From positions 1 through 62,220 of the IMG/VR virus record IMGVR_UViG_3300009609_000004: a stretch of 62,220 nucleotides of DNA, one strand, 5' to 3'. The translations under genes and the position numbers were made by a program. Shown here piece by piece: positions 126-60,921 of the stretch. Position 1 is the first letter of the stretch. Each line of letters opens with the position of its first letter. Below the pieces are notes generated by a model, which made no database searches, was not told where the DNA came from, and saw nothing but the letters and a program-made list of their open reading frames with translations. Source of the stretch: a virus.

Positions 126-1157
126 ATGCGAAAAATTCTTCACATCCTGACGTTGGCTGCGGTTCTGCTGGCGGTCCAAGCGACCGCCTTCAGCCAGACG
201 CAGCCGACTTTCACGACACTTTCGGCCGCAGTTGCGGATGAGCGCACCACGCGACTCACCGTTACAAGCGCCACCGGATTCGTTGCCAGCAATCAAGCGA
301 CTGGTCTCGACTACGGACTTTTCGTCGACAACGAATTCATGCGTATCACCGCAGTCAGTGGTACGACGATCACGGTCGAGCGCGGCCAGGCGCGCACGAA
401 TGCTACGGCTCACAAATCAGGGGCCCGTGTATTTGTCGGCCAGTTCGGATCCCAACGGCAGAGTTCAACGCAGACCGGAGGCCCGTTTATCCAGTCTCCG
501 CTGTACGGTTCCTGCACGCGAACAACCGGGACGATCCTGCCGCTGATTCAGGTCAATCCGACGACGCTCGGCGGCCAGGCGCTCTACGATTGCAACAACG
601 GGAAGTGGATCAAGGCGACTCTGTTCGATGACCAGCCTCAATCCCCGCTCGTCGGCCCGTGTAGCGTTCCTATCGGCTCGGTCGCTTACGCTTCCTTCGG
701 CACGAACACCGCCGATGTTGCCAATAAGCGCATGTCGACGTCGATTTATGTACCGGTGACCGGTATCTATACCGGTGTGCAGTTCCTTCAGGGCGGCACG
801 GCTACGACCGATAACATCACGTTCGGGCTGTTCGATGCTGGAGGTAAGCCGATTGCGAATGCGGGGGCGACAGGCGTCCTGCTGGCGACGGCCGACACGT
901 TTAAGGCGGTGCCGTTCACTGCCGGCTCGTCTGGTAACGCTCAGACGTTGACGATTGTTCCTGGTCCGGCGAACTACTTCATCAGCCTGAACGCCAACGG
1001 TTCAACGGCTGGTGCAATCCGGACCGTTGCCGTGTCGACTTTCAAGAACGTTCTATCGGCCGGAACAACCAGCGTCACGTTTGGGACGTTTGTGGCATTC
1101 ACGCCCCCGACGACGTTCACTGCCGATCTTGCTCCTATCGGCTGCTTCTACAACTAA
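126..1157 (+). CDS. Secreted virion-associated protein next to coat gene
   Basis: 343 aa. The ATG at 126 follows an AAAGGA ribosome site and opens a clear Sec signal peptide: basic Arg2-Lys3, a hydrophobic core of about 15 residues, and a probable cut after AFS near residue 23, leaving Gln at the new N-terminus. The mature part is Thr/Ala/Gly rich and predicted all-beta. It first has a domain of about 80 residues with the pattern FVDNEFMRI and TITVERGQ, then a short Cys module (YDCNNGKW), then a beta C-terminal half. It lies directly downstream of the coat gene and ends at a strong terminator, so a decoration or head-surface protein is a fair guess, but the signal peptide is unusual for one. 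Function is not assigned. Confidence 0.75.
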   Translation: MRKILHILTLAAVLLAVQATAFSQTQPTFTTLSAAVADERTTRLTVTSATGFVASNQATGLDYGLFVDNEFMRITAVSGTTITVERGQARTNATAHKSGARVFVGQFGSQRQSSTQTGGPFIQSPLYGSCTRTTGTILPLIQVNPTTLGGQALYDCNNGKWIKATLFDDQPQSPLVGPCSVPIGSVAYASFGTNTADVANKRMSTSIYVPVTGIYTGVQFLQGGTATTDNITFGLFDAGGKPIANAGATGVLLATADTFKAVPFTAGSSGNAQTLTIVPGPANYFISLNANGSTAGAIRTVAVSTFKNVLSAGTTSVTFGTFVAFTPPTTFTADLAPIGCFYN

Positions 1158-1173
1158 ACACCGCATGAAATAG

Positions 1174-1213
1174 GGTCCATAGCCGGGTCACCAGCCCGGC
1201 ATGGACCTTTTTT
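1174..1213 (+). terminator. Intrinsic terminator after the capsid block
   Basis: An outer stem GGTCCAT/ATGGACC (1174-1180 with 1201-1207) encloses a second stem GCCGGG/CCCGGC and is followed by six T residues (1208-1213). It separates the coat and 126 genes from the 1246 operon. Confidence 0.9.
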
Positions 1214-1245
1214 GCATTTCGTAAGAACAGAAAGGTCTCTCTTCA

Positions 1246-2742
1246 ATGAGAAAACTGTTACTTGCTCTACTGCTTCTGTTTATCCCAGCGATTGCAACCG
1301 CGAAGAATGCCCTCGGCGTGCTCTCTGCCTCTGCGAACTCGTGTACACCAACGACAGGCGTGGCGCTGACCCTTGATCAAAACGACAGTACCGCGACTAT
1401 TCAACTGAATGGAACATTCGTCGGAACGGTCACGTTCACCATTTCTTCGAACGGCGGCACATACACTGCGATTAAAGGGATTCCATCGACGCTCGGTTCG
1501 GCCACGTCGACGGCGACAAGTACCGGGGCGTGGATCTTCAGCGTTGCAGGATCGACGAATATCTGCGCCTACATATCCACTTACACGTCCGGGTCTGTAA
1601 TCGTCGTTATCAATTCGTCGTCGGCAATGGTCTCCGGGCTCACGAGTACGTCGCTTCCTCAGAGTCTCGACACGACGTCTTCCCCGACATTTGCCGCGCT
1701 GACTCTCAACCCAGGCGGTGCTACCGCTCTGACAGTTGAGGGTGCAACTGACGACACGGTTGAAACAATCGTCGCCTTTGCGGATCCAACATCCTCCGAC
1801 AAGACCGTGACGTTCGCCGATGCAACCGGCACGGTCATGCTCAGTACCCTTTCAACCAATGCTCCAGACGCTGCGAACAGTGTCACTGGCGCATCGAATG
1901 CCCTCGTGTTCGAGGGGGCCACGGCGGACGGCTTTGAGATTTCCGTCGCACCAGCAGACACAGGAGCGGATGTAACGATCACACTTCCTGCCGCAGCCGG
2001 AACCGTCATGCTGTCGACATTGGCAACCAACGCGCCGGACGCAGCAAACTCAGTGACCGGAGCGAGTGCGGCGCTCGTTTTCGAAGGAGCAACCGCCGAC
2101 GCATTTGAATTGAGCGTGACGGCGGCCGATCCAACGGTTGGCGACACGGTGCTGACGCTGCCCAATACCGGAGGCGTCAACGTCGCGGCAATGGTGAGCA
2201 CGCTCACAACAAACTCTCCGGATGCCGCGAATTCAGTGACAGGTGCCAGCGCCGCGCTGCTTTTCGAAGGTACCGCGGATGCCTTCGAAACCTCGCTGAC
2301 GGTCACCGATCCCACCGCAGACCGGACCGTGACAATTCCAGATTCCACCTTCACGGTCGGCCAGATCGAAGTGACCTACACCATGCTTGCGAACGGATCG
2401 CTCGCCGACCAGACGTTCTTCCTGGCCACGCGCGCTTACATCGTGACGGCAATTTCAGAAGTGCATTCAGTCGCCGGTAACGATGCGGGCGCCGTGAATC
2501 TACAGGTCACGAAAGACACTTCAACTAACGCGCCTGGGGCCGGCACGGACCTACTTACCAATAACGCCAATGCCGGATTTGACCTGAAGGGCACGGCAAA
2601 CACTGTCCAGGCGGGAACGCTCGCCGCTTCCGCCGCGACACTGACTCTTGCTGCTGGCGACCGGTTGGCCGTCGACTTCGCCGGAACCTTGGCGACTCTT
2701 GCTGGCGTGACGGTGACCGTCTCCATGCGACCAATCAACTAA
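1246..2742 (+). CDS. Secreted repeat-rich fibre-like protein
   Basis: 498 aa with a Sec signal peptide (Arg2-Lys3, a Leu-rich core, cut after ATA near residue 19). Residues 25-125 are a beta domain that is also found in the protein at 5396. Residues 161-369 are four imperfect repeats of 42-59 residues carrying NAPDAANSVTGAS, A[AL]LxFEG and T[VI]TLP, typical of trimeric beta-prism or fibre shafts. The C-terminal 120 residues are another Ala/Thr-rich beta domain. It is the first gene after a terminator and is followed at 22 bases by 2764. A tail fibre or surface fibre is likely; its export signal is the odd feature. Confidence 0.78.
   Translation: MRKLLLALLLLFIPAIATAKNALGVLSASANSCTPTTGVALTLDQNDSTATIQLNGTFVGTVTFTISSNGGTYTAIKGIPSTLGSATSTATSTGAWIFSVAGSTNICAYISTYTSGSVIVVINSSSAMVSGLTSTSLPQSLDTTSSPTFAALTLNPGGATALTVEGATDDTVETIVAFADPTSSDKTVTFADATGTVMLSTLSTNAPDAANSVTGASNALVFEGATADGFEISVAPADTGADVTITLPAAAGTVMLSTLATNAPDAANSVTGASAALVFEGATADAFELSVTAADPTVGDTVLTLPNTGGVNVAAMVSTLTTNSPDAANSVTGASAALLFEGTADAFETSLTVTDPTADRTVTIPDSTFTVGQIEVTYTMLANGSLADQTFFLATRAYIVTAISEVHSVAGNDAGAVNLQVTKDTSTNAPGAGTDLLTNNANAGFDLKGTANTVQAGTLAASAATLTLAAGDRLAVDFAGTLATLAGVTVTVSMRPIN
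1726..2352 (+). repeat. Four coding tandem repeats in the fibre-like protein
   Basis: Units begin at residues 161, 205, 262 and 323 of the 1246 protein. The last three share NxPDAANSVTGAS almost exactly while the nucleotides have diverged, so the repeat is old and kept at protein level. Confidence 0.8.
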
Positions 2743-2763
2743 ACAGAAAGGAACTTTTCACCA

Positions 2764-3339
2764 ATGGCTTTCGATTACAAAAAACACCACACCCGCGCGA
2801 TGTATGCCCCGCAGGATTATGGCAGCATCAAAAAGGGCATGTCCAAGGAAGTGAACTCGCAGGATGAAGAGATCAATGCCCGTAAAGAGGGCTACACGAG
2901 CGAGCGTTACGTCAAGTCGGAGTACCCCACTACGTTCTGGCACAAGGAAACCGGTGCGACGCGAATCGTCGGGCGGATCGAGTGGTCGGTCGAGCAGAAC
3001 GATGAGGCAGTGGCGGCGGCGGAAAGAGACGGATTCGGACGCGAGCATGTAGCCGCAGCCGAAAAGAAAGCTGATGCGCAACTACAGCACGGCGGCTCCG
3101 GACTCATGGAACTGGCGACCCTAATCGCCGACATGCGAGCGAACCAGGAGGCCATCCTGCAGATCGGTGACGCCTGTTCGCGTATGGAAATCGCAGTGAC
3201 CGAACTCGTTGCGGCGAAGATCGCTGTAGATGCTCGCCTTGCCGAACTGGAGACCGCTCCAGACGCTCTGGCACCGCTCATTAAGCGACTCGATCAGATC
3301 GAAAAAGAACTGAAAAAAGAGCACAAGAAAAACGATTAA
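2764..3339 (+). CDS. Coiled-coil protein of unknown function
   Basis: 191 aa, no signal peptide. The N-terminal 75 residues are polar and rich in Lys, Tyr and His. Residues from about 100 to the end are strongly helical with heptads and end in a Lys/Glu-rich tail (KKEHKKND). It precedes the gp4-like gene by three bases, so it may be a head-tail assembly factor, but I recognise no family. Confidence 0.7.
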   Translation: MAFDYKKHHTRAMYAPQDYGSIKKGMSKEVNSQDEEINARKEGYTSERYVKSEYPTTFWHKETGATRIVGRIEWSVEQNDEAVAAAERDGFGREHVAAAEKKADAQLQHGGSGLMELATLIADMRANQEAILQIGDACSRMEIAVTELVAAKIAVDARLAELETAPDALAPLIKRLDQIEKELKKEHKKND

Positions 3340-3342
3340 CCA

Positions 3343-4122
3343 GTGACTGTCAACGACCTCATCTTTGAGGCTGGTGTCATGGCGGGCAACTTCTCGCCAT
3401 CGCAGGGCATGCCGCCGGAAGAAGCGGCGTACGGCTTTCGCAAGCTGGCTGACCTCATCGATCTCCTTAAAACCCACAGACTCACACTCTACCGTCGCCA
3501 GCGATGCGGTCCGTTCTCGGTGACCTCCGGGCAGGGAGACATCACCGCATCCAGCCCGATTACGATCGGGACAGGGGCGACGTGGAGTACGCCGCGTCCA
3601 GTCTGGATTGATGGCGCCGGACTGATCTACACGGCCGGCAGCGTTCCTTATCCCGAACTCCCGATGCGCGTCATGACCGTCAAGGAATGGCGCGCGGAAC
3701 AGGTCAAGGGGATAACGGCGACACTCTCCTACGCGTTGATCTACGACCAGACGTTTACTGCGGACGGCTACGGGCACATCTATCTGTATCCCGTGCCGAG
3801 CGCATCGTTTCAGGTTGTTCTCTACAACGGGATTCCGGTAGCGGAGTTCCCGCTCGACGCCAACGGCAATCCAGACTTCACGACGGCGATCGCGCTGCCG
3901 CCCGGCTATCGGATGATGCTGATTTCAAATCTGGCAAAAATCATGTGCCTGGGACTGCAGACGATCTCTGCCGATCTTCGCGAGACGGCCGAGAACAGCC
4001 TTGCCGACGTGAAGACCTCGAACCTTGTTCAGCACATGGACACGCTCAGTTGTGATAGCGCGGTGCGTCAGGACGGGAATAGAAGCGGCGGGTGGAATTG
4101 GATAACGGGAAACATAGAGTAA
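3343..4122 (+). CDS. P22 gp4-like head completion / tail accessory factor
   Basis: 259 aa, GTG start. The sequence has the look of the P22 gp4 family: a helical start (VNDLIFEAGVMAG), a region holding YLYPVP after a conserved aromatic stretch, and the LPPGYRMMLISNLA segment near residue 190 followed by helices. In P22, gp4 binds under the portal and begins closing the packaged head. A gp10-like protein at 10189 supports the assignment. The start lies 3 bases after the previous stop and the stop abuts the next ATG. Confidence 0.72.
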   Translation: MTVNDLIFEAGVMAGNFSPSQGMPPEEAAYGFRKLADLIDLLKTHRLTLYRRQRCGPFSVTSGQGDITASSPITIGTGATWSTPRPVWIDGAGLIYTAGSVPYPELPMRVMTVKEWRAEQVKGITATLSYALIYDQTFTADGYGHIYLYPVPSASFQVVLYNGIPVAEFPLDANGNPDFTTAIALPPGYRMMLISNLAKIMCLGLQTISADLRETAENSLADVKTSNLVQHMDTLSCDSAVRQDGNRSGGWNWITGNIE

Positions 4123-4482
4123 ATGGGCGAACTTCATCTCGGAATCGATTCTGTTCTTTTGTTCGCGCTCGGAATCATCGGCTACTTCCTCCGTTGGGTT
4201 CACAAGAAAAACGAAGAAACTCACACGGAGAACAAGGCGGCGTTGCAGGCGATCGAGAAGCGCCTTCTTTCCGACCTTGAAATCCTCGGCGTCGTCAACG
4301 GGAAGTACGTCAGCCGGAAAGAGCAGGATCTTGTGCTGAGGGAAAGCGAGACGCAGCACAGACATCTGAGCGAGAAGATCGAAACATTATCGAAGGAAGC
4401 GGCGGGACTGCGAACCCTCTGGGATAACAGCATTGCGACGCTCCTTTCCAACATCTACGCAGCACTGGAGCGCACGCGATGA
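4123..4482 (+). CDS. Membrane-anchored coiled-coil protein, lysis cassette
   Basis: 119 aa. One hydrophobic segment at residues 8-24, then KK and a long charged helix of about 90 residues. Stop overlaps the start of the transglycosylase gene (ATGA-type overlap). By position and shape it could be an inner-membrane spanin or a single-pass holin/antiholin; no motif decides. Confidence 0.7.
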   Translation: MGELHLGIDSVLLFALGIIGYFLRWVHKKNEETHTENKAALQAIEKRLLSDLEILGVVNGKYVSRKEQDLVLRESETQHRHLSEKIETLSKEAAGLRTLWDNSIATLLSNIYAALERTR

Positions 4483-4964
4483 CGAAAGAAGAACTCGTAA
4501 AGATTGCCGTGCAGATTGCGCTGATGCGCGGTCTTGATCCGGCGCTCGTCTGTTCGATCTGCGCTCACGAATCTGCCGGCTGGAATATGTGGGCGACGCG
4601 ATACGAGCCCGCCTTCTACGCCCGATACATCGAGCCCATGAAAGACGTGCGGACATTCGGCCCGACGATCTCCCAGGCAACGGAGCGCCGCGATCGTGCG
4701 ACGTCCTTCGGGCTGATGCAGGTCATGGGCCAGGTGGCGCGCGAGTACGGATTCACGGGTGAATTCCTGAGCGAGTTACTCGATCAGCACAAAGGCATCC
4801 TGTACGGCTGCCTGAAACTGCAACGTTCGATCGATAAGAACAAGGGCAATGTTCCGGCAGGACTTCTTTCCTATAACGGTAGCGGCAACGCTCGCTACCC
4901 GGATCTGATCATGTCCCATTACAAAGACTACGCATATCTGAATTCAGCGACGAGGATACCGTGA
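4479..4964 (+). CDS. Lytic transglycosylase (SLT fold), probable endolysin
   Basis: 161 aa. It has the SLT-type lysozyme fold: a catalytic Glu31 in CAHESAGWN, then SFGLMQVMG near residue 76, and LLSYNGSGNARYP near residue 130. These enzymes cut the MurNAc-GlcNAc bond of peptidoglycan to leave anhydro-MurNAc. There is no signal peptide, so it needs the membrane protein next door for release, or acts as a virion enzyme. It lies between a one-TM and a two-TM gene with overlapping starts, a classic lysis arrangement. Confidence 0.88.
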   Translation: MTKEELVKIAVQIALMRGLDPALVCSICAHESAGWNMWATRYEPAFYARYIEPMKDVRTFGPTISQATERRDRATSFGLMQVMGQVAREYGFTGEFLSELLDQHKGILYGCLKLQRSIDKNKGNVPAGLLSYNGSGNARYPDLIMSHYKDYAYLNSATRIP

Positions 4965-5242
4965 AGCAGTTCATTGAAGATCACTTCGACAAACTCCTGC
5001 TGGGCTGCATGCTCATGTACCTCGTCCACGTTGTTCTTTTTCTTTCCATGAGGCAGACAGCGCCGGAGGTCATCTCATGGGCTCGCGAATTGACCAGCGG
5101 GTTCGCGGGCGGACTGCTGGGACTGATCACCGGAATGCGTATTCAGAACGGAGGAAGTGATGTTAAGTCTCGCCTTAGCGTTTCTAAAATCGACAATCAA
5201 AAACAGGAAAAAGGCAGCGAAGATCGAGAAGGAGTTAATTGA
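4961..5242 (+). CDS. Putative holin, two transmembrane segments
   Basis: 93 aa, GTG start overlapping the endolysin stop by four bases. Hydrophobic stretches at about residues 12-31 and 48-61 are followed by a polar tail. Size, two-segment layout and position after the transglycosylase fit a phage holin that makes the membrane hole. A second gene, 5160-5300, overlaps its last third in another frame. Confidence 0.7.
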   Translation: MKQFIEDHFDKLLLGCMLMYLVHVVLFLSMRQTAPEVISWARELTSGFAGGLLGLITGMRIQNGGSDVKSRLSVSKIDNQKQEKGSEDREGVN

Positions 5243-5300
5243 GATCCGCGATCTGATCAACGAGTACCTGGAACTCCCACGTCCCGGCAAAACAAAATGA
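5160..5300 (+). CDS. Small overlapping lysis-region gene
   Basis: 46 aa (starts MLSLALAFLK, ends LPRPGKTK). It has the best ribosome site in the neighbourhood, GGAGG at 5150-5154, five bases before its ATG, which is itself inside the putative holin gene in a different frame. A short hydrophobic start is followed by a charged amphipathic helix. Nested small ORFs at this place in lysis cassettes are often spanin or antiholin components; that role is inferred. Confidence 0.6.
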   Translation: MLSLALAFLKSTIKNRKKAAKIEKELIEIRDLINEYLELPRPGKTK

Positions 5301-5350
5301 TGTTCCCCGGCCAGTAAGCCGAACAGGTTTCCCCTCACCGCTCCCTCGGT

Positions 5351-5383
5351 AAAGCCCCCGTCGCAAGGCGGGGGTTTCTTTTT
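5351..5383 (+). terminator. Intrinsic terminator after the lysis cassette
   Basis: A 9-bp stem, AAGCCCCCG with CGGGGGTTT (one G-U pair), has an 8-base loop and runs into CTTTTT. It ends the 1246-5300 transcription unit. Confidence 0.88.
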
Positions 5384-5395
5384 GGAGTCCAAACA

Positions 5396-6394
5396 ATGAA
5401 GAAAACTCTCATCGCGGCATTAATGCTGGCGTTGCTTCCTGTCGCGCTGTTCGCGCAGCAGCCTGTCACCGGGTCGATCACGGCAACCAGTTCGAACTGC
5501 ACGTCGACGGCTTGCGTCATGTGGCAGCTCCCGCAGGGCGGCAATACGACCAACATCGGTACGGTCGCCATGCAGGTCACTGGCACATTCTCGGCCACGC
5601 TGCAGTTCGAGGCGGCGATCGATGGGAACTCGTTAACGCCGACGTTTGTCGCGATCTACGGGTTCCCCATTGGATCGAGTACGCCGGCAACGTCCACTAC
5701 CAGCACCGGTCTCTGGCAGTTCTCAACGGCGGGACTCTCGGTCATACGCGTCCGCGCTTCTGCCTATACGAGCGGCACGGCGGTCGTTTTGATGACTGCA
5801 TCGAATCCCAACTTCGGAGGTGGAGGCGGTGGTGTTGGTGGAGGTGGCGGACCGGTCACGATAGCGGACGGCGCGGACGTTGCAGAAGGCTCGACGACGG
5901 TAGATCGCTGCGCAACTACCGATACGACGACATGCACCCTGGTTGGACTGGCCAAGCAAACGAATTGGTTTCTGGAAAACTCGACAGGTCAAACCACGCT
6001 TGCAGGTTCGAACTCGGTCAATCTGGCTTACCCGACCTTGGCGAGTGGGTTTATCTCCACTGCGATGACCGGAACGACGTCGACCGTCTTTGGCGGTGGG
6101 TTGGCCGCAACTGCGAATAACTACATCTATCTGACGTCCTGCACGACATCAAACTCAAGTCTGACTGTTTCGACGGACATCTTACTTCAGGACGGAAGCG
6201 GCGGAACAACGCTCTATGTTCTGCCTGCTCCAGCTGCAGCAGTGGCGACAACTGGCGGCGGTGGAGGGACGTTTACCTTCCCAATGCCGATCAAGGTTCC
6301 AACCGCAGGCAATGCGCTCTACGCAGCCAATGTAACCTCGGGATCGTCGACGAAGATTTCCTGCTCGGGCTTCAAGTCGACAATTAGCTACTGA
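5396..6394 (+). CDS. Secreted beta-domain protein with Gly linker
   Basis: 332 aa. Signal peptide MKKTLIAALML... with a cut after LFA near residue 20, leaving Gln-Gln. Residues 24-135 repeat the domain of the 1246 protein: GSITA, a Cys, GTF..T..F, a central TSTGLWQFSTAG and ASAYTSG. A glycine linker (about residues 141-153) joins it to a second beta domain of about 180 residues. GGAG at 5384-5387 is its ribosome site. It probably forms a particle-surface or fibre component. No catalytic motif is visible. Confidence 0.75.
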   Translation: MKKTLIAALMLALLPVALFAQQPVTGSITATSSNCTSTACVMWQLPQGGNTTNIGTVAMQVTGTFSATLQFEAAIDGNSLTPTFVAIYGFPIGSSTPATSTTSTGLWQFSTAGLSVIRVRASAYTSGTAVVLMTASNPNFGGGGGGVGGGGGPVTIADGADVAEGSTTVDRCATTDTTTCTLVGLAKQTNWFLENSTGQTTLAGSNSVNLAYPTLASGFISTAMTGTTSTVFGGGLAATANNYIYLTSCTTSNSSLTVSTDILLQDGSGGTTLYVLPAPAAAVATTGGGGGTFTFPMPIKVPTAGNALYAANVTSGSSTKISCSGFKSTISY

Positions 6395-6395
6395 T

Positions 6396-7247
6396 ATGAA
6401 GAAGGCGTTTCTCTTTATCGCGATTCTCTGCCCTGCTCTGCTGTTCGCGCAGAGTCTCCCAACGACAGGTTTAACCTACCACGCGAAAGCGCAGGTTGAC
6501 ACAGACATCTGGCAAGTCAACACGGGCGGGGTGTTCTCAGACCATCCTACGGACGGTGAAGCGGTCAAGTACGCCGATGACGTTGCGCACGGTCTGTATT
6601 CACTAGGGCAGAACGGCGCAGATCCTATCTGGGATGTCTCGACGCCGCTGATGGTCCTGCCGAACCTGGCATTCGACGGGACTGATGACCAGCTTCGCAC
6701 CGAACTAAGTTCGACAGAAGGCTCAGTCAACGCCAGTAATTTTGTAACGGTCAGCGCCGCCACCATGATTTTCGCAATCTACGTGGAGGCAGTAGACACA
6801 AACAACGCTGCCACATACGACAACGATGCCATCATTTCGGAGGGTACGGGGAATTTCGGACTTGTGCTGAAAAACAACGCAGGTGCCTATACCATCTGCT
6901 ACGCAAATTTCGACGGCTCCGACGACAGCGTTTGTAAATCCATCTCGATCAACACGACGTATGTAGTGATGGCTCGGCACGAATCAGGAAATATCTACAT
7001 CTCGATTAACGGAGGGGCCGAAACCTCAGCGGCGAGTGGGAACACGTCAGGCGTCGGAGCGCCTGTATACATTGGACGCAACTACAACGCGGCTCAGTTC
7101 TACGCTGGCCGAATTGGTGAGCTTGCTCTATGGAATGTTGCGCTGACAGGTACGGACCTTTCAGACGCTATTGCCTACTTCCGGAACATTTGGACGCCTT
7201 CTAACCGCAGATGCACGATGTCTTTACTTGGGGTGGGTGGATGTTAA
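6396..7247 (+). CDS. Secreted LamG/concanavalin-like sugar-binding protein
   Basis: 283 aa, starting one base after the previous stop. Signal peptide with a cut after LFA near residue 19. The mature protein has the LamG/concanavalin A-like jelly roll signature: LAFDGTDDQL near residue 92, an FAIYVEA strand, the pattern NIYISINGGAE, and GRIGELALWNVALTGTDLSDA near the end. Such domains bind glycans or calcium on host surfaces, so a receptor-binding role is plausible. Confidence 0.78.
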   Translation: MKKAFLFIAILCPALLFAQSLPTTGLTYHAKAQVDTDIWQVNTGGVFSDHPTDGEAVKYADDVAHGLYSLGQNGADPIWDVSTPLMVLPNLAFDGTDDQLRTELSSTEGSVNASNFVTVSAATMIFAIYVEAVDTNNAATYDNDAIISEGTGNFGLVLKNNAGAYTICYANFDGSDDSVCKSISINTTYVVMARHESGNIYISINGGAETSAASGNTSGVGAPVYIGRNYNAAQFYAGRIGELALWNVALTGTDLSDAIAYFRNIWTPSNRRCTMSLLGVGGC

Positions 7248-7452
7248 CCGCTCGTACATTACCTGCTGCTCGAGAGGTGGATCAGTGAGCCGCAATTGCG
7301 TCCCTCGTTCCGATAGCAGCGCCTGTCGGAATGGAACAAGCGAGAACTCTAACTGTTTCGCATTCGTTTCAGGCAGGAACGTTCCTGCTACATCCAGTAG
7401 CCAAAGAGCCAGTCGCATCCGCATATCGGTATTAACCCGCACCCTTGATCTT
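7248..7452. other. Gap before the large tailspike gene, with palindrome
   Basis: 205 bases with no convincing gene. The frame of the next gene is open here, but its composition (Ser/Arg/Cys scatter) does not look coded. A perfect 16-base palindrome GCAGGAAC/GTTCCTGC lies at 7373-7388 and may be a protein-binding site or hairpin. Confidence 0.5.
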
Positions 7453-10188
7453 ATGTCAAGGTTCGTGGTAGCGGCTATGTTCATCCTCATTTTCTCGCTT
7501 TCCGCGCATGCCGCCTGTACCGGCTCCAGCCCAACATGGACCACTACTGTAGACAGAGCATCTGTTCAATCCTGCCTCGATTCAGCCGTTGACGGCGACA
7601 CGATCAACATCTCGGCAGGTTCGGACACCTGGACAACTGCGGTTTCGTACACAAATAAGAGGCTCAAGATACTAGGTCCAACCTGCACGCTGAATGCTGC
7701 CGGTCAGCCTACAGCCTGCCCCGTAGTCATCTCCGTCAACACTGGCAACTCGGCAATCGTCGCGACCATTTGCTCAGCCGATGACTTCATGGAAATCGGG
7801 CATTTGGAGTTCGTTCTCCTGTCAGTGTCAAACGCGGGCGTTATTGAGACCAATTGCACTGCCGCGAATGGCTACCCGGCTGAGGCGTTCCGCGTTCATC
7901 ACGTCAGGATGACTGGAAGCCCGGTCAGTGGCGGACGATGGATGCTGTTCTACGCGACCTACGGCCTCGTGGACCACGTGTATTTGTCCTCCGGAACGGT
8001 GGGCAATATCTCGATGGCGCAGGACAACACAAGCAGCACCTGCAACTCCTATCACGAGCCGTTTGCTCTCGGCGACGAATACGCGCTCTTCATCGAAGAC
8101 AGTTATCTTTACTCGACTGGCGTGAACGTTGGGAATGGCACCCAGGATCACTACATGGGTGCACGATACGTCTTCCGGATGAATACGGTTTACAACAACC
8201 ATTCCGGGCATCACGGACTGGACTCCGGCAATTGCGGCGTGCCGACGTTCGAGTATTACGGCAACACCTGGATATCCGAAAGTGGCATCCCGAGTGTTCA
8301 GTTGATCCACCCGAGAAGCGGAACCGGAATCGTGTGGGGAAACAAGGTCCAAAACAACGTCAACGCGGCGAATGGATATACGAGCCTTCTCCGGCCTATT
8401 TGTTATGCCTGCATGTCGGATTCTGAGGCGCTTGGCATCACCAATCTTGGCGACCTGGGTTTGTCCGCACGCGCCGCCCGCTACTACCCAACTGGCACGT
8501 GGGGAGCGCCGTACACGGGGACGTCCAACTATGACGACGGGCTCGGAAACTACGTCAAAAGCAACGTTCTCATCGATGGGAACCTGAACGGCAGCTATCC
8601 GCTCGGGAACATGGATTCTGGTTTAAGTCGAACAGTTACCGATATGGTGACGACGGCCGGAAGCACGACAATCACATCGACCAACGCAGACTTCGTTGCA
8701 GGTGACGTGACCGGAGTTCCCGTTACTCAAGCCGAAAACTTTGTAGCTGGGCGGTCGCTGTCCTGCACTGTCGTCAGCGGCGATCCAACGGTTGTATGTG
8801 CTGGAGGAAATTTCACCGCAGCCGATGATGGACGAGAAGTTAGTTCGCTGGATCAGTCAACAATCGTTTCGCCGAACGTGACCACGATTGATTCCATAAC
8901 GAACTCCACCACTGTGGAACTAGTCAACGCTCCAGAGACAACAGGAACGCAGGTACTAGTCTTTGCCGATCCTCGTATCGTCTCAATCTCAGATGAACAC
9001 ACGGCAGTAATGAACGTCCCGGCGACGGCAAACGGGACAGGAAAAACCCTAACCATCGGCTACAGCAATCAGCGTTACCCGCTCGCCGATCAACCAGGGT
9101 GGGGTTACTTCGCATCGGCGAATGCAGGGCTTTGGCCGACACAGACCTCCTATTCAACGGCAAACTTTGAAGGTCTGATGCCAATCTACATGGTCGGCAA
9201 TCTCTGGCAGACGGTCAACGATTCACTGGTTGTGCAGACAAGCACGAATCCGCCCGCGACGGCGGCGTTTTTCACTTCAACAGGCGGCTATCTCAAAGCA
9301 GATCGGGAGTGGTACGACCCCTATCCGAATCCAGCTGGGGCTGGCATTCAAACAAACGCGACCACGCCGTTTAACGGAACGTCGGGAACCGGCATCGGAA
9401 CGATAGAGAACATCCCAACGACATGCACGGCTGGAGTCGGTTATTGGGCAGTCAATGAAGGAACGTGGAACAGCGGCAGCTTCACCTACACGTATCCGAA
9501 CGGCGGCAGCACTTACACTCATGGCCGGTTCTATAAGTGCGTAGCTACGGATGATTGGGATCTGTTCTACACGCCCTTCGATTACCCGCACCCCCTTCAG
9601 GGCGCAGTTACTCTGACTTCAGTGTCACCCGATCAAGGTAGTCAAAACACGACGGCAGCGGTCACTCTGACCGGGACGGGATTTGACGGCGGCAACTTCG
9701 CTGTCCAAATTACCGGTTCCAACGTCACGATTAATAACATCGCTGGATCAGGCGGAACCACACGCACCGCAGACTTCGTAATTGCAGCGGGAGCGGCCAC
9801 GGGCGACCGAAGCGTTACCGTATCCACGGATGCCGGAACCAGCAACGCTGTCACATTTACCATTGTCGGGTCCAGTGCGCCAGTCTTGACGTCCTTCACC
9901 CCGACTCAGGGAGTTCAGGGCGCTTCCTACTCATTCACGGTTATTGGAACAGGGTTCGACGGTGGCTCTGGAACGTTGACGGAATCCTGCACAGGGTTGT
10001 CATTAAGCGGAATCACTGTTGTCAGTGCGACAAGGATCACGGCGACGCTGACGCTGGCGTCGGACGCTTCGTTAGCTGGCTGCGTTATCGCAGTCACAAC
10101 TACAGGCGGAACAAGCAATACTGAGGTTTTCCAGCCTCAGGCTCTTGCTCAAGCTGGTTATGGAGTAGGACGAACACGAAGAAGGTAG
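7453..10188 (+). CDS. Secreted beta-helix protein with IPT/TIG domains (tailspike-like)
   Basis: 911 aa from the ATG at 7453, chosen because it opens a signal peptide (hydrophobic core, cut after AHA). Residues from about 25 to 370 have short repeating strands with Asn/Gly turns typical of a right-handed parallel beta-helix (pectate-lyase-like), including IEDSYLYSTG and FRMNTVYNNHSGHHG. The middle is beta-rich. Two IPT/TIG Ig-like domains end the protein (SPDQGSQN..LTGTGFDGG and TPTQGVQG..IGTGFDGG). A polysaccharide-degrading or binding spike is likely. No clear ribosome site precedes the start, so an upstream start is possible. Confidence 0.75.
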   Translation: MSRFVVAAMFILIFSLSAHAACTGSSPTWTTTVDRASVQSCLDSAVDGDTINISAGSDTWTTAVSYTNKRLKILGPTCTLNAAGQPTACPVVISVNTGNSAIVATICSADDFMEIGHLEFVLLSVSNAGVIETNCTAANGYPAEAFRVHHVRMTGSPVSGGRWMLFYATYGLVDHVYLSSGTVGNISMAQDNTSSTCNSYHEPFALGDEYALFIEDSYLYSTGVNVGNGTQDHYMGARYVFRMNTVYNNHSGHHGLDSGNCGVPTFEYYGNTWISESGIPSVQLIHPRSGTGIVWGNKVQNNVNAANGYTSLLRPICYACMSDSEALGITNLGDLGLSARAARYYPTGTWGAPYTGTSNYDDGLGNYVKSNVLIDGNLNGSYPLGNMDSGLSRTVTDMVTTAGSTTITSTNADFVAGDVTGVPVTQAENFVAGRSLSCTVVSGDPTVVCAGGNFTAADDGREVSSLDQSTIVSPNVTTIDSITNSTTVELVNAPETTGTQVLVFADPRIVSISDEHTAVMNVPATANGTGKTLTIGYSNQRYPLADQPGWGYFASANAGLWPTQTSYSTANFEGLMPIYMVGNLWQTVNDSLVVQTSTNPPATAAFFTSTGGYLKADREWYDPYPNPAGAGIQTNATTPFNGTSGTGIGTIENIPTTCTAGVGYWAVNEGTWNSGSFTYTYPNGGSTYTHGRFYKCVATDDWDLFYTPFDYPHPLQGAVTLTSVSPDQGSQNTTAAVTLTGTGFDGGNFAVQITGSNVTINNIAGSGGTTRTADFVIAAGAATGDRSVTVSTDAGTSNAVTFTIVGSSAPVLTSFTPTQGVQGASYSFTVIGTGFDGGSGTLTESCTGLSLSGITVVSATRITATLTLASDASLAGCVIAVTTTGGTSNTEVFQPQALAQAGYGVGRTRRR

Positions 10189-11853
10189 ATGGACTTCCCA
10201 CAACTGATAGGCCCCTCCTATACAACCTGGTCTCCGAAAGCTGAAATCCAGAGCTGCAAGAATCTCTACCTCGAGCGGATCGAGAGCGGTGCCGGTCGCA
10301 ACCGGTACGCGATGTACATGACGTTCGGGACGGAGGTTTGGCATGGCGCGCTTGGGTCGACGAATCGCGGCTTCCTGCTCGACCCGACGAACAATCACCT
10401 CTTTGCGCTTCAGGACAGCACGGTGTACGACCTACTGAGTGACGGCACGACGAACGCGAGTTACGCCGGTGTTTCAGATGACGGGCTTATGGCCAGCATC
10501 GACGCAACCAGCAACTCGCTTTTTATTGTAAGCAAGAACATTCTCTATCGGGTATTCGGCGGCGCGCTGACGACGCCGGCAACGCCATTCACGCCGGAAG
10601 CAGTGGCTGTGATCAATGGAATTGTCGTCACACTCGCCGCAGGAACGAATCGGTTCTATTTCTCGAATGACGATGGGGCGACATGGGGCGCGCTGGATTT
10701 TCAGACGGCGGAAGCCTACCCGAACACCCTGATCAACATGGTTGTTGATCATCAAGAACTGTGGCTCTTTGGGAATCGGCGCACGCAGGTCTTCGTCGTC
10801 GGCCTCGATCCGGACGCTCCGTTTGATCCGGTTTCTTCCGGAGTGATCGAGATGGGGCTTGCGGCAAAACGCGCCGTGGTCCGGATGGATAACTCGATTT
10901 ATTGGCTCGGCCGCAACAAGGACGGCGACCACATGGTTTACCGGGCGAACGGGTATCTGCCGGTTCGTGTGAGCACGCATGCCGTCGAGAACGCCTTCCG
11001 CTCCTATTCGGAACATGAAGACGCCTTCATGCAAGCGTTCCAGTTAAACGGTCACTCGTGCTTCCGGCTGACGTTCCCATCGGCGAATAACGGCCTCGGC
11101 GCCACATGGCAGTACGACGCGAGCCTGCCACCTGAATTAGCGTGGGTCGAAGTCCCCTGGTGGAATCTGCGGCAGGGGCAATACGAGCGGAACCGTGCAA
11201 ACGGCATCGTGTCTGCGTTTGGCAAGATCCTTGTAGGCGATTACGCGAACGGGCACATCTACGAAATGAGTCCGGACTTTGCCTACGATTGGGGTTTCCC
11301 GCTGCGATGGGAGCGGCGTTGCCCACACATCACTCAGGATCGAAAGCGCATTCGGTATCAGCGGTTCGATCTGTTTATTCAGCCCGGCGTCGGCCGCGTT
11401 GCTCCGTTGTGGCTGAATTCGTGGTCCCTGGACCCTGCCACCTTCGCGTCGGATCTGGCGGCCGCTGTGTTCCTCGGCTCGGTGACCTCGGCACAGGCGG
11501 TCACGCTTCAGCGTATCTACGATTACCTGCCTTACACGCCGCTCGATACGTGGCCTTCGCCGGATGTGATGAACGCCCTCGGTTTCTATCCGTGGGGGAG
11601 TGTTTCGAGTCTTTCAAATGGAACGACATTGGGAGATCCGCCTCAGCTTGCAGCTCGGTGGTCGGACGATGGCGGGGAAACCTTCGGGGCGTACCAGTAT
11701 CGCAGCATGGGCCTCAGCGGTGAGTACAGCAAGGAATTGTCATGGCTTCGCTGCGGCATGGGATTCGATCGGGTGTGGGAGATCAGCGGCGACGCGCCTG
11801 TGAAGACTGCCATCGTGCAGGGCACGTTCGATGCTGAGGTATGCCAGAACTGA
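10189..11853 (+). CDS. P22 gp10-like packaged-DNA stabilisation / tail hub protein
   Basis: 554 aa, no signal peptide. It has the feel of the gp10 family: N-terminal NLYLERIESGAGRNRYAMY, then a seven-blade-like series of short strands (LFALQDSTVYDL, LFIVSKNILYRV, LWLFGNRRTQVF, IYWLGRNKDGDHMVYRANGY), and a C-terminal beta domain with RWSDDGGETFG. In P22, gp10 follows gp4 under the portal and carries the needle and spikes. It overlaps the next gene by 13 bases. Confidence 0.75.
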   Translation: MDFPQLIGPSYTTWSPKAEIQSCKNLYLERIESGAGRNRYAMYMTFGTEVWHGALGSTNRGFLLDPTNNHLFALQDSTVYDLLSDGTTNASYAGVSDDGLMASIDATSNSLFIVSKNILYRVFGGALTTPATPFTPEAVAVINGIVVTLAAGTNRFYFSNDDGATWGALDFQTAEAYPNTLINMVVDHQELWLFGNRRTQVFVVGLDPDAPFDPVSSGVIEMGLAAKRAVVRMDNSIYWLGRNKDGDHMVYRANGYLPVRVSTHAVENAFRSYSEHEDAFMQAFQLNGHSCFRLTFPSANNGLGATWQYDASLPPELAWVEVPWWNLRQGQYERNRANGIVSAFGKILVGDYANGHIYEMSPDFAYDWGFPLRWERRCPHITQDRKRIRYQRFDLFIQPGVGRVAPLWLNSWSLDPATFASDLAAAVFLGSVTSAQAVTLQRIYDYLPYTPLDTWPSPDVMNALGFYPWGSVSSLSNGTTLGDPPQLAARWSDDGGETFGAYQYRSMGLSGEYSKELSWLRCGMGFDRVWEISGDAPVKTAIVQGTFDAEVCQN

Positions 11854-12254
11854 TCAGCCTCGATAACCTCGAGGTCCGCACCCCTATCGTTGAATTTCCG
11901 ACCAGGCAAGGAACGCCGATTGGGTTACAACTCACGGGCCCTTGGCAGCGGCGGTTTGAAAGCCTTTGGCGGTATGTGCAGCGCAAGCGAGCCGTTCGGG
12001 AAGTTTCTACTTCTCGCAACATCGCATACAGCGAGCGCAGCGCCATCCTGCTTGCAACCGGAACGATCACGCTGACACTGCCCGCTGCTGAGATCGGTGA
12101 CACCTTCTACGTTTTCAATTACGGTTCCGGGGTCATCACGATCGCCGGAACGATCAATGGAAATGCGCTCGGATACCAACTGACGAACCAGTACCAATAC
12201 GCCGAGTTCACCAACGTCGACGGCTCCAACTGGATCGTAACGATCAACAACTAA
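11841..12254 (+). CDS. Small beta-rich tail protein
   Basis: 137 aa. A polar helical first half is followed by a repetitive beta part (TITLTLPAAEIGDTFYVFN, GVITIAG) that resembles the C-terminal cap modules of phage fibres. It overlaps the gp10-like gene. It could be a needle or adaptor subunit, but this is positional. Confidence 0.65.
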   Translation: MPELISLDNLEVRTPIVEFPTRQGTPIGLQLTGPWQRRFESLWRYVQRKRAVREVSTSRNIAYSERSAILLATGTITLTLPAAEIGDTFYVFNYGSGVITIAGTINGNALGYQLTNQYQYAEFTNVDGSNWIVTINN

Positions 12255-12263
12255 CAACATAAA

Positions 12264-13052
12264 ATGAGATTCGCTGCGCTACTCGCTGCTGTTGCGCTTG
12301 CGGTCGCACCTATTCCACAGGGCGGCCAAGCCACCGTCGTTCGCCACGGCTCAAGCCTCCCGTCTGTCTGTACAGCAAATCAGGACCTCTTTATTCGGGA
12401 CAGCGTCGGCCCCTACTGGTGCTCCGCGGCGAATACGTGGTCGCTCATCGGTGAGCCTGCGGGCCTGATCGGCATGGTCGAGACGGGAACCTGTCCGACC
12501 GGCTACACGCAAGTCACCTCGATCGATGGCCGGATGGCTCTTGCAACGCTGGCGGCACACGGCGACGTGGGGACGACGGGCGGCAGCGACAACATCACGC
12601 CCGCTGGAACGAACAGCGCCCCTGTTTTTACCGGCAATCTAGAAGACACGACAGATGTGAGTGCGGGGACGCCGGCAGGAACAAACAGCGCGGCGACGTT
12701 TACCGGAAACGGCGCGGTCCTGACGGGGACGGTTTCTCAGCCGACCTTTGCCGGCGATGCGGTTACGGCGGCAAGCACGGCGGCTACGCCCGACCTTGTT
12801 GCAGCCGATGTCACCGGAGCGGGAGTCAGTCCCGTCACAACAGCAACGGGGACGGTTTCTCAGCCGACCTTGTCGATGGACAGCTACACGCCAACTGGGA
12901 CCAACAGCGCGGCCACATTTACAGGGAATGCGCTCCCGACACATGAGCATGAAGTGACTGCGACTGGCACGAATTCGGCGCCGACATTCACCGGCACTCA
13001 GTTCGACAACCGCAGCGGATTTATGCGCGTCATATTTTGCAAGAAAGCCTGA
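12264..13052 (+). CDS. Secreted collar-type tail fibre protein
   Basis: 262 aa. Signal peptide of about 23 residues (cut near GQA). A Cys-pair module follows (SVCTANQDLFI...YWCSAANTWS), then a tail-collar-like start (GLIGMVETGTCPTGYTQV), HGDVGTTGGSD, and five copies of GTNSAxxFTG separated by TVSQPTF-type strands. It ends in FMRVIFCKKA, the ending usual for phage collar domains. Receptor contact is the usual job of such fibres. It sits between the gp10-like and tailspike genes. Confidence 0.75.
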   Translation: MRFAALLAAVALAVAPIPQGGQATVVRHGSSLPSVCTANQDLFIRDSVGPYWCSAANTWSLIGEPAGLIGMVETGTCPTGYTQVTSIDGRMALATLAAHGDVGTTGGSDNITPAGTNSAPVFTGNLEDTTDVSAGTPAGTNSAATFTGNGAVLTGTVSQPTFAGDAVTAASTAATPDLVAADVTGAGVSPVTTATGTVSQPTLSMDSYTPTGTNSAATFTGNALPTHEHEVTATGTNSAPTFTGTQFDNRSGFMRVIFCKKA

Positions 13053-13059
13053 AAGCCCT

Positions 13060-14931
13060 ATGAAAAAGATTTCCGCTCTGATCCTAATTCTCCTGTTCGT
13101 CATTGCTCCAGTCGCTGCGCAGAACACGGGCGAGCTTGCGACATGGACGATGCCGACGTTTGTGATTGCCGATGGGCACACGCCGGCGGCCCTGGGTTTT
13201 ATCTGTACGACCTCCAGCGGTGGGAGCACTCCGCTCGCGACCTACAGGGATACGGCCCTCACGCAGGCGAACCAGAATCCGATCCGGCTCAGCGCATCGG
13301 GGCAACCTGTCAACAGCGGCACTCCGGTATCGATCTATCTTCTTGCGCAGTCGTACCGGTTCACGCTGTATGCGGCGGGTACGGGCAACACTTGCAACGG
13401 GACGGCAGTCGGTACGCAACTCCGGCAGGTTGACGGGATCTACAATCTCGCTCAACTCTTCACGGAAGCCTTCGTCACAAAACTCGACGACAAAGTGTGC
13501 CACGCCGCGGCGTATACGACACTCGCGAACGCCGGAGCGAAGATCGCGGAATGCCTCTCCGTCCTTCCTTCAACGGGTGGAACAGTTGACGCGCGCGGCC
13601 TTGAAGGCGCTCAAACCGCAACTGCGAATCCGTTCGCAAGTGTGACGAAGCCGTTCGTTCTCCTACTGGGATGCGCGACGATATCGACTTCCGCGCAGTG
13701 GTCCCTTACCGGCCAGGGGCAAAGCATCGTCGGCGCTGGCCGCTGCAGTGTCCTGAAAGCCTCTGGCGCCATAGCGAGCGTACTGAAGCAAGACGGTACG
13801 GTAATCGGAGGAAACGGACTTCAGGGCGGCTATATCGGCCATCTTCGCATCGACGGCAACGGGCTCGCTACTGATGGCTGGATCGGCACGCGAATCTCTG
13901 GCGTGGTGGTTGATCAGGTATCGGTCACAAACGTCACGAGTGCCGGGTTCCGATGCGTCACCGCTTCTTTCGGATGCGTGACCGTCACGTTCAACACGCC
14001 GATTGTCAGCGTCAATTACGAAGCGTTTTCCACGGTTCCAACCTACGGAATTCGGTTCGATGATTCCGGATCTTCAAACAATACGATTATCACATCGAAG
14101 TTTGAAGGGATCACGACTGGCACAGGAATCGGGATTCTCGACGAAGGACAGGCCAACAATTATTACGGCGGAACAACTGAAGGAAACGATGTTGGAATCC
14201 GGACAGGAACGAACGGGCACCACACTTTCTATGGACTGTTTCTTGAGCTGAACACCGTCGCGGACATCCAGATTTACGGGTTTGAAAACGCGTTTATCAA
14301 CATGACCTCGACGTCGGACGTTGCGAATTCGACGCAGTTCATTGGCGCGAGTTCCTATAAGAACAGGCTACAGGATGGGTTCTATACGCGGATCACTCTG
14401 GACGTCGCGAGCGCCTACAACATTCTCGATAATGCCGATGCGACCGTCAGCCTGACGGATAACTCAGCAACAACAACGTGGCGCAATATCAATGTGGCTG
14501 GAGTGGCGCAGCAGGACCGCGGGCCTTATACGATCCTTGCGGAAACCATCACGACGCTCACAAGTACGACGGCAAGCATCACGACGGGCAATATCACGAC
14601 GGCAAACATCACGAACGCCGTGGTCTCTGACTCGGTTGTCGGGGCGGCAGGCGCTGGCCTCAGCCTGAATCTTCAACCTGGAAACAACTCCGCTGGCGAT
14701 GTGCTAATCCGGGACTATCAGAGCACCACGAGGGCTACCGTAGATCAGAACGGCTTCAAGATTGAGCCGGTCGCCTTCGCCGCTCTCGGTACGGCAACGC
14801 TTGGTCTGATCAAACCATGCTCCGACTGCACGGTGACCAGTGGCGCGGACAATACTTGCACGAATGGCGGGACCGGGGCTCTGGCGGTGGCTCTGAACGG
14901 TGTTTGGAGGTGTTTTAATGCGCAGAACTGA
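13060..14931 (+). CDS. Secreted beta-helix tailspike
   Basis: 623 aa. Signal peptide with a cut after VAA near residue 20, leaving Gln-Asn. Residues 25-125 are a compact beta domain (PLATYRDTALTQANQNPIRL, FTLYAAGTG) like the head-binding part of tailspikes. Residues about 170-480 form a pectin-lyase-like right-handed beta-helix with Gly/Asn turns. Residues about 500-540 have repeated [AS]xITTxN steps of a trimeric shaft. The end is Cys-rich (CSDCTVTSG, WRCFN). It probably binds or cleaves surface polysaccharide. The mature protein has at least 14 Cys, unusual for a cytoplasm-assembled spike. Confidence 0.78.
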   Translation: MKKISALILILLFVIAPVAAQNTGELATWTMPTFVIADGHTPAALGFICTTSSGGSTPLATYRDTALTQANQNPIRLSASGQPVNSGTPVSIYLLAQSYRFTLYAAGTGNTCNGTAVGTQLRQVDGIYNLAQLFTEAFVTKLDDKVCHAAAYTTLANAGAKIAECLSVLPSTGGTVDARGLEGAQTATANPFASVTKPFVLLLGCATISTSAQWSLTGQGQSIVGAGRCSVLKASGAIASVLKQDGTVIGGNGLQGGYIGHLRIDGNGLATDGWIGTRISGVVVDQVSVTNVTSAGFRCVTASFGCVTVTFNTPIVSVNYEAFSTVPTYGIRFDDSGSSNNTIITSKFEGITTGTGIGILDEGQANNYYGGTTEGNDVGIRTGTNGHHTFYGLFLELNTVADIQIYGFENAFINMTSTSDVANSTQFIGASSYKNRLQDGFYTRITLDVASAYNILDNADATVSLTDNSATTTWRNINVAGVAQQDRGPYTILAETITTLTSTTASITTGNITTANITNAVVSDSVVGAAGAGLSLNLQPGNNSAGDVLIRDYQSTTRATVDQNGFKIEPVAFAALGTATLGLIKPCSDCTVTSGADNTCTNGGTGALAVALNGVWRCFNAQN

Positions 14932-22550: not shown

Positions 22551-22826
22551 TTATGCCTTGCGCTGAATTGCCCTAATGAAGTCGTTCTTGGTTAAACCTT
22601 TGGCGAGTACCTGCTGAAGCAACTCACGTCTCACCTGAAGCGCATGTCGATTAATCAGGCCTAGCTGCTCCGAATCTCTTGGAATCGCTATACCGTCACG
22701 TCGTCCCGTGCATACGGTTTGATCGTAGGCTTCGCATCGTTCGTGATACTGCTGCGCCAGATCGTAGAGAAAACGGTCCTTTTCGCTGATCTCAAACGTG
22801 CCCATGAACTGCTTTCCGAAATCCAC
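22551..22826 (-). CDS. Small protein of unknown function
   Basis: 91 aa, GTG start that shares its G with the stop of the upstream gene. The ribosome site GGGAGG lies within the last codons of that gene. Mostly helical; the region VLAKGLTKNDFIRAIQRKA at the end is basic. No family recognised. Confidence 0.6.
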   Translation of the reverse strand: MDFGKQFMGTFEISEKDRFLYDLAQQYHERCEAYDQTVCTGRRDGIAIPRDSEQLGLINRHALQVRRELLQQVLAKGLTKNDFIRAIQRKA

Positions 22827-23011: not shown

Positions 23012-23059
23012 TTGCTATTTCCCTCCCATCGCCACATACCCTAAAAAGGGTCAGTAGTT

Positions 23060-23311: not shown

Positions 23312-23313
23312 CT

Positions 23314-23439: not shown

Positions 23440-23467
23440 CTATTTCCCTCCCATCGCCACACCGTTG

Positions 23468-46818: not shown

Positions 46819-46831
46819 GGGATGCCTCCGC

Positions 46832-59665: not shown

Positions 59666-59681
59666 TTTCAGTTACAACTTA

Positions 59682-59755
59682 GCCCTCGTAGCTCAGGTGG
59701 AAAGAGCAGTCGGCTTCTAACCGACAGGCCGCAGGTTCGAATCCTGCCAAGGGCT
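59682..59755 (+). tRNA. tRNA-Arg (TCT)
   Basis: Cloverleaf: acceptor GCCCTCG/CAAGGGC with one C-A mismatch, D arm with GCTC/GAGC, anticodon stem GTCGG/CCGAC with loop CTTCTAA (anticodon TCT), T arm GCAGG-TTCGAAT-CCTGC. It reads AGA codons. No CCA is encoded. A 7-bp hairpin CGCGGAG/CTCCGCG at 59758-59773 follows. It lies in a late operon, between portal and scaffold. Confidence 0.93.
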
Positions 59756-59835
59756 CTCGCGGAGTTCTCCGCGTTATCGGCCACCGCTTGTGCCGTCAAA
59801 CAGGCGAACCCATCCCACATTCAGGAGTGAATTGA

Positions 59836-60873: not shown

Positions 60874-60878
60874 ATATG

Positions 60879-60907
60879 CTCAACGATCCCATCAGTTGGG
60901 AGTTGAG
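60879..60907 (+). promoter_or_regulatory. RNA hairpin at the coat gene ribosome site
   Basis: CTCAAC-GA-TCCCA / TGGGA-GTTGAG with a TCAGT loop and a 2-base bulge, ending two bases before GGAGG (60909-60913). It could control coat translation or protect the message end. Confidence 0.6.
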
Positions 60908-60921
60908 CGGAGGATACCCAT

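Follow-up and report, generated by a model that had tools for sequence, protein, structure and literature searches.

Sec signal peptides on virion-type proteins of a P22-like soil podovirus and the possible completion of its particles at lysis

Introduction

The spikes of tailed phages are normally assembled in the cytoplasm, and the tailspikes of P22 are both made and attached there. The phage IMGVR_UViG_3300009609_000004, a P22-like podovirus from soil with a closed 62-kb genome, raises the question of why a set of proteins from its late block should open with what appear to be Sec signal peptides, and of where such proteins would meet the particle. In the sections below, we discuss the evidence for export of these proteins, their relation to the virion, and the alternative roles that they might play; throughout, the window denotes the whole stretch of 62,220 nucleotides that was analyzed, and the proteins are named by the first position of their genes.

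Genome context and identification of the signals

The coat (PHROG 283), portal (PHROG 156), and Hc3/gp10 (PHROG 578) proteins were all matched, in the same order as in relatives, and an ejection protein was matched to PHROG 598. The genome also encodes an integrase, so the phage is probably temperate. Shine-Dalgarno motifs accompany 44% of the starts in the window, compared with 9% of random sites, which speaks against a host from the Bacteroidota. Scans of genome contigs with head closure and portal found neither host nor prophage, and a search for the integrase in plasmids gave remote matches only, none of them pointing to a host.

Signals were called by a rule that combines a charged n-region, an uncharged hydrophobic h-region, and the -3/-1 rule, and which recognized 8/8 E. 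coli signals used as controls. The original prediction had assigned Sec signals to seven proteins; all are open reading frames from the starts given below, and all were called (scores 4.0-6.0), each having the charged n-region, hydrophobic core, and small residues at -3 and -1 of Sec/signal peptidase I substrates. The protein at 7453 was scored from the ATG at 7453, as the automatic whole-locus scan had missed it because its reading frame opens far upstream. Of 16 further proteins from the late and packaging genes, 15 were not called, the exception being 53750, with a score far below the threshold; the adaptor, head-closure, coat, portal, scaffold, and ejection proteins are uncalled, as had been anticipated for the gp4-, gp10-, coat-, and ejection-type neighbors. 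At the whole-locus threshold, 7/17 late-module genes carry a signal, compared with 9/259 genes across 22 distant P22-like loci (Fisher p = 7e-6). A lipobox, with its Cys at +1, is absent from all the predicted sites (0/7), and in 4/7 window proteins (126, 5396, 6396, and 13060, the expected four) the residue at +1 is Gln; AxA sites followed by Gln are also frequent in Granulicella. The features are as follows, L001 being one of two related loci (L001 and L002).

126..194, + strand: Sec signal peptide of the coat-adjacent protein (MRKILHILTLAAVLLAVQATAFS, then Q), rule call
195..1157, + strand: mature coat-adjacent protein, 320 aa, 4 Cys, with an N-terminal domain common to phage tail proteins (PHROG 1101)
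1174..1213, + strand: terminator-like hairpin and T-run after the coat-adjacent gene, read from the sequence and absent from the hairpin-scan list
1246..1302, + strand: Sec signal peptide of 1246 (MRKLLLALLLLFIPAIATA, then K); the L001 counterpart also has a signal
1303..2742, + strand: mature 1246 protein (479 aa, 2 Cys), which has a homologue of its N-terminal module in L001:722-1999
2764..4122, + strand: two signal-less proteins, 2764-3339 of unknown type and 3343-4122 an SU10-type adaptor in the gp4 position
4123..5242, + strand: lysis-like cassette of a membrane protein, a transglycosylase-like endolysin without signal, and a membrane protein, with a putative role in lysis read from the sequence
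5352..5385, + strand: terminator-like hairpin upstream of the second exported block (hairpin scan)
5396..5455, + strand: Sec signal peptide of 5396 (MKKTLIAALMLALLPVALFA, then Q), rule call
5456..6394, + strand: mature 5396 protein, 312 aa, 6 Cys, 44% identity to the signal-bearing L001:4373-5263
6396..6449, + strand: Sec signal peptide of 6396 (MKKAFLFIAILCPALLFA, then Q), rule call
6450..7247, + strand: mature 6396 protein, LamG-like (Laminin_G_3, PF13385), 4 Cys
7453..7512, + strand: Sec signal peptide of 7453 (MSRFVVAAMFILIFSLSAHA, then A), rule call
7513..10188, + strand: mature 7453 protein, 891 aa, 16 Cys, sub-threshold TIG domain
10189..11853, + strand: head-closure protein Hc3 (P22 gp10-like), without signal (family match, rule caller)
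11841..12254, + strand: small tail or fiber protein adjoining gp10, without signal or Cys
12264..12332, + strand: Sec-like signal peptide of 12264, the weakest of the seven (MRFAALLAAVALAVAPIPQGGQA, then T), rule call
12333..13052, + strand: mature 12264 protein, collar/fiber-like, 4 Cys
13060..13119, + strand: Sec signal peptide of the spike (MKKISALILILLFVIAPVAA, then Q), rule call
13120..13443, + strand: N-terminal domain of the spike, with homologues in phage spikes that lack a signal (PHROG 26190)
13444..14931, + strand: remainder of the spike; 12 Cys in the whole mature protein
14941..22438, + strand: ejection/internal virion proteins, without signal and without Cys
57371..62169, + strand: P22-type portal, scaffold, and coat genes, without signal

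The LamG-like assignment of 6396 was borne out (E 3e-10). The signal of 12264 has one charge and the site GQA before Thr, and no family was matched for this protein.

Conservation of the signals and the cysteine evidence

Homologues of the coat-adjacent protein occur in about a dozen P22-like lineages, with coat PHROG 283 directly upstream in 7/7 tested, and nearly all have a signal followed by Gln at +1; their leaders diverge, yet this Gln persists. The mature Cys number is even in all 14 listed signal-bearing homologues, and the single homologue without a signal (L044) has zero Cys. The family matches the JC1 tail fibers gp56 and gp57 weakly, both of which lack a signal, and an AlphaFold model of the window protein (pLDDT 39.5) was too poor for use.

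Across the wider block, signals are retained in both L001 and L002. In L001 they stand at matching positions, in two cases on non-similar proteins: the gene at the 6396 position has no detectable similarity but carries a signal nonetheless, and the protein at the 7453 position is unrelated and signal-bearing; at the 12264 position, no counterpart with a signal was seen in L001. The set of signals, kept as it is at matching positions in related genomes, is not a product of chance.

The mature proteins 126, 1246, 5396, 6396, 7453, 12264, and 13060 contain 4, 2, 6, 4, 16, 4, and 12 Cys, respectively, all even numbers; for 13060, at least 14 had been claimed. Mature exported proteins have 1.60 Cys per 100 aa compared with 0.41 in their neighbors, a 3.9-fold difference (p about 1e-16), and even counts are found in 17/21 exported proteins (p = 0.007), a sample that takes in the L002 protein 2344-5382, whose start was placed roughly, and a parity statistic that overstates significance because homologues are not independent. 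The original interpretation is thus borne out in part: export, which it proposed, draws strong support from the conservation of the signals and, independently, from the cysteines.

The spike and membership of the virion

The spikes of the window, L001, and L002 bear signals, unlike the usual P22-like spikes. The L002 spike matches PHROG 26190, a match common to PBR31 and MW202483, and a profile of the clade's spike N-terminal domain, aligned from window and locus sequences only, matched signal-less spikes with hhalign E-values of 2e-9 and 5e-11; a comparison in which the target was already inside the alignment was left out as circular. Homologues without leaders begin directly at the domain, the signal-less group in one comparison consisting of three proteins. 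Cys 49 (13204-13206) and Cys 112 (13393-13395) are invariant in the clade, specific to it, and missing from the signal-less relatives. A PDB profile search with the domain returned nothing useful, and its AlphaFold model (pLDDT 42.3) was too poor for use.

A beta-helix spike fold had been proposed for both 7453 and 13060. The former shows just a sub-threshold TIG domain and does not bear this out, and for the latter the fold has support only by way of an L001 relative, which has weak pectate-lyase-like and tail-spike matches. The domain ties 13060, and only 13060, to spike N-termini, which supports its place in the virion, whereas membership of 126, 1246, 5396, 6396, 7453, and 12264 is plausible from position and resemblance. 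Since no convincing spike was found among the signal-less proteins of the window, a spiked particle would need the exported ones.

Comparison with known systems

The phage resembles P22-like podoviruses (Lederbergvirus and relatives) in its coat, portal, Hc3/gp10, and ejection proteins and in a similar gene order, and phages such as PBR31 have the same N-terminal domain on their signal-less spikes; it differs in placing Sec signals and paired Cys on peripheral proteins. Filamentous phage coat proteins are virion proteins with Sec signals that are assembled in the membrane of a living cell, whereas the phage studied here is tailed and its head is cytoplasmic. Llp of T5 is a receptor-masking lipoprotein, exported during infection, that acts on the surface receptor; it is likewise an exported phage protein, but the cut sites predicted here are not lipoboxes, and several of the proteins are large and fiber-like.

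Further parallels are Burkholderia Bcep781 gp49, BcepC6B gp19, and Xanthomonas PBR31 orf035, annotated as tail fiber or structural proteins and bearing a Sec leader; gp49 has 14 mature Cys and would be left with an N-terminal Gln. The only remark found on a signal in these cultivated-phage fibers is that of the Bcep781 depositors, who marked the tail fiber in their GenBank record as having a "possible signal peptide domain". These phages differ in that one signal-bearing protein, not a set, was seen in each, and BcepC6B and PBR31 retain a separate signal-less spike. In Porphyromonas gingivalis phages, genes of unknown function encode Q-rule signal peptides (PMC10367356), so that there, too, a Sec signal on a phage protein leaves Gln, but the host belongs to the Bacteroidota and the proteins were taken for possible modifiers of the outer membrane and not for parts of the virion (PMC10367356). 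Our literature search found no described system of the present kind, and the earlier statement that none is known is roughly right, but these precedents, scattered as they are, qualify it.

Proposed mechanism and alternative explanations

The explanation that we favor, and consider probable with some reserve, is export by Sec, disulfide formation, and attachment at lysis to DNA-filled particles built in the cytoplasm. Adhesion and decoration proteins of the phage periphery would be translated with a Sec signal at the amino terminus, and host signal peptidase I would cleave them as they cross the inner membrane; folding and disulfide formation would follow in the periplasm, where the proteins would be kept ready, while the cytoplasm would build a DNA-filled core of coat, portal, adaptor, Hc3, small tail protein, and ejection proteins. 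The holin and the signal-less endolysin would then open the cell, and the cores would meet ready spikes, which would dock through their N-terminal head-binding-type domain. The signals, their conservation, the paired cysteines, and the shared spike domain are present in the sequence; the late timing, cleavage, disulfides, and docking at lysis are what we infer from them. Tailspikes of P22, for their part, can join completed heads in vitro.

The original prediction had left envelope decoration and a block to superinfection open beside the joining of particles after lysis; of these we favor joining, which we place at lysis. Its most serious competitor, which we hold to be unlikely though far from negligible, is that the proteins are exported late and never join the phage, instead acting in a manner comparable to Llp: they would bind, mask, or cut receptors and surface glycans of the dying cell and of the debris it leaves, which would spare progeny from being trapped and keep other phages out. 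LamG and fiber-like modules suit the binding of glycans or receptors, an exported protein of the same module in Acetobacter phage phiAX1 is annotated as a glucanotransferase, and the lone signal-bearing fibers of PBR31 and BcepC6B, standing beside separate signal-less spikes, need not be structural. Such a role, however, would leave the mature spike with a useless head-binding-type domain at its N-terminus, would deprive the window of any convincing spike, and sits poorly with the location of the coat-adjacent gene, which comes after that for the coat in diverse lineages.

Conservation of position also bears on whether these are passenger genes, that is, morons encoding adhesins or glycan-binding proteins that the host secretes, of use to the lysogen and not to phage particles. 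The integrase and probable temperate lifestyle accord with this, as does the occurrence of LamG and TIG modules in cell proteins, but the genes lie within the late head-tail block in an order conserved in related genomes, one family holds a fixed position adjoining the coat gene, and their domains recur in the tail proteins and spikes of phages, which makes the idea very improbable. We give marginally less credence still to the leaders being uncleaved hydrophobic N-termini that serve as membrane anchors or lie inside the particle: cleavage is so far predicted from sequence, and a few genes have other possible starts, but each short hydrophobic stretch precedes a signal-peptidase-like site, leaderless homologues begin right at the domain, the Gln after the site is kept in nearly all coat-adjacent homologues despite divergent leaders, and Cys enrichment with even counts is expected only outside the cytoplasm.

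Implications

Beyond this genome, we put at somewhat better than even the chance that tailed phages of a broad group finish their particles outside the cytoplasm, the periplasm serving as a store for a set of Sec-exported adhesins and capsid-associated proteins with disulfide bonds, which would be added to the DNA-filled particles no earlier than lysis. If so, the assembly of tailed phages would not always be completed in the cytoplasm, the use of disulfide-rich adhesins by some phages would be explained, spikes could be mixed between co-infecting phages, and a signal combined with paired Cys would provide a sequence mark for the receptor-binding proteins of uncultivated phages.

Genome Organization and Gene Content

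The first 123 bases of the virus record are identical to its last 123, and the window therefore closes as a circle of about 62.1 kb. The phage is a P22-like podovirus and is probably temperate, with the following features.

57371-62169: P22-type portal, scaffold, and coat
3343: SU10-type adaptor
4123-5242: lysis-like cassette without signals, between the two exported blocks
10189: head-closure Hc3/gp10-like protein
14941: ejection protein
17813: internal virion protein
49576: integrase

The large terminase is apparently split into two genes, both in the window (53750-56068) and in the related genome L001 (locus L005, 11941-13676, minus strand); the halves are separated in the window by an endonuclease VII-type gene (54710-55288), with 55298-56068 matching the C-terminal part of the enzyme, and overlap by stop and start in L001's genome, which also carries a second, diverged coat-like gene (L005:14113-15315, minus strand). 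Near the terminase, 56065-56433 encodes a small protein with an export-like leader, and its L001-genome counterpart (L005:11525-11956, minus strand) contains HELIH, a possible zinc-protease motif. The window also encodes an SPFH/Band_7 protein (44294-45244, minus strand; PF01145, E 2e-30) and a DUF6745 protein (45712-46977, minus strand; tandem 12-base repeats inside the gene at 46324-46563), and its non-late region contains three spaced copies (22811-23461) of a possibly regulatory motif around CTATTTCCCTCCCATCGCCA.

Export Signals and Cysteine Content

Signals were called, and gene starts set, by our own rules, the caller accepting 8/8 E. coli control signals. The original prediction had placed Sec signals on seven virion-type proteins, starting at 126, 1246, 5396, 6396, 7453, 12264, and 13060, and none on their core neighbors; the caller accepted all seven, 12264 being the weakest, and made no call on adaptor, head-closure, ejection, coat, portal, or scaffold proteins. 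Signals occur on 7 of 17 late-module genes, versus 9 of 259 in 22 distant P22-like loci, and we consider the seven proteins very probably exported. Two details of that prediction need amending: 13060 has 12 cysteines rather than at least 14, and a beta-helix in 7453 is not established.

Cysteine content is evidence independent of the leader and, at the sequence level, fits folding in an oxidizing compartment. Although many of the homologues compared are kin rather than independent, cysteines per 100 residues reach 1.60 in 21 signal-bearing mature proteins of the window clade versus 0.41 in 22 signal-less neighbors (p about 1e-16), and mature counts are even in 17 of the 21 (p = 0.007), as in 7/7 named window proteins.

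Conservation and Wider Distribution

The 51-kb L001 record shares the window's gene order (identity 81% for coat, 68% for portal, 57% for Hc3) and carries signals on its counterparts of 126, 1246, 5396, and 13060, as well as on a second spike copy. Its proteins at the 6396 and 7453 positions also bear signals despite undetectable similarity to the window proteins, so that signals track a gene's place and role and not only one protein family; the related locus L002 likewise has several signal-bearing proteins.

A scan with the coat-adjacent 126 family gave 17 loci, four of which (L050, L054, L055, L056) appear to duplicate others, and 7/7 loci tested have a P22-type coat gene immediately upstream. 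Nearly all homologues carry a signal with Gln directly after it (L042, L043, L045-L049, L051-L053, L057, L025), the leaders of L052, missed by the caller, and L046, scored low, being plain by eye. The 14 signal-bearing homologues listed have 2, 4, 6, or 8 mature cysteines, an even parity that, given their relatedness, does not amount to 14 independent tests. The exception is L044, where the protein at this position begins directly at the domain, without a signal, and has no cysteine; two other proteins further downstream in its late module have signals.

Two tail fibres, orf035 of Xanthomonas PBR31 and gp19 of Burkholderia BcepC6B, likewise carry conserved signals, and a scan with them gave at least 22 distinct signal-bearing fibres of one N-domain type versus 2 without. 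With four N-domain types pooled, at least two cysteines occur in 35/41 signal-bearing versus 0/3 signal-less proteins (Fisher p = 0.006, small sample). A signal also opens gp49 of the Burkholderia myovirus Bcep781, leaving Gln after the cut and a mature protein with 14 cysteines; the depositors remarked on a "possible signal peptide domain". In Acetobacter phage phiAX1, the interval from coat to gp10 contains two proteins with signals; at L012:18074-19999 of this phage, the annotated start (18179) skips an in-frame export signal from 18074. We found no published description of such a system among the open-access papers searched, the nearest report being of Q-rule signals on function-unknown genes of Porphyromonas gingivalis phages (PMC10367356).

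Host

Scans of genome contigs with head closure and portal found no host. Shine-Dalgarno motifs precede 44% of window starts versus 9% of random sites, a frequency of the kind that argues against a Bacteroidota host. Within 300 kb of a Granulicella (Acidobacteriota) plasmid, AxA|Q occurs in 15 of the 28 signals called by rule, and our guess, consistent with this, is an acidobacterial host. The many predicted signals leaving +1 Gln on this plasmid, pACIX901 (L058-L063), constitute a Q-rule-like bias outside Bacteroidota.

Proposed Assembly at Lysis

Directly after the signal of the 13060 spike lies a domain of about 110 residues that also begins the signal-less spike of PBR31 and a collar protein of MW202483 (E 2e-9 and 5e-11 with the clade profile); PHROG 26190 matches both proteins and, through L002, the window clade. 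Cys 49 and Cys 112 are invariant in the window clade, and the signal-less relatives lack both. Judged from sequence, this shared domain is the strongest argument that an exported protein may be destined to sit on a particle.

In the main rival explanation, the exported proteins act on the dying cell and its debris, where they mask or destroy receptors. PBR31 and BcepC6B each have a separate spike without a signal, which leaves room for this explanation in those phages; in the window phage, the head-binding-type domain on the 13060 spike counts against it, as does the absence of any convincing spike without a signal, and for these two reasons we favor a meeting of particle and adhesins at lysis. 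Most likely, cytoplasmic assembly of the core particle would run alongside export of the adhesins and their processing and oxidation in the periplasm, and particle and adhesins would come together at lysis, where docking seems to us somewhat probable.
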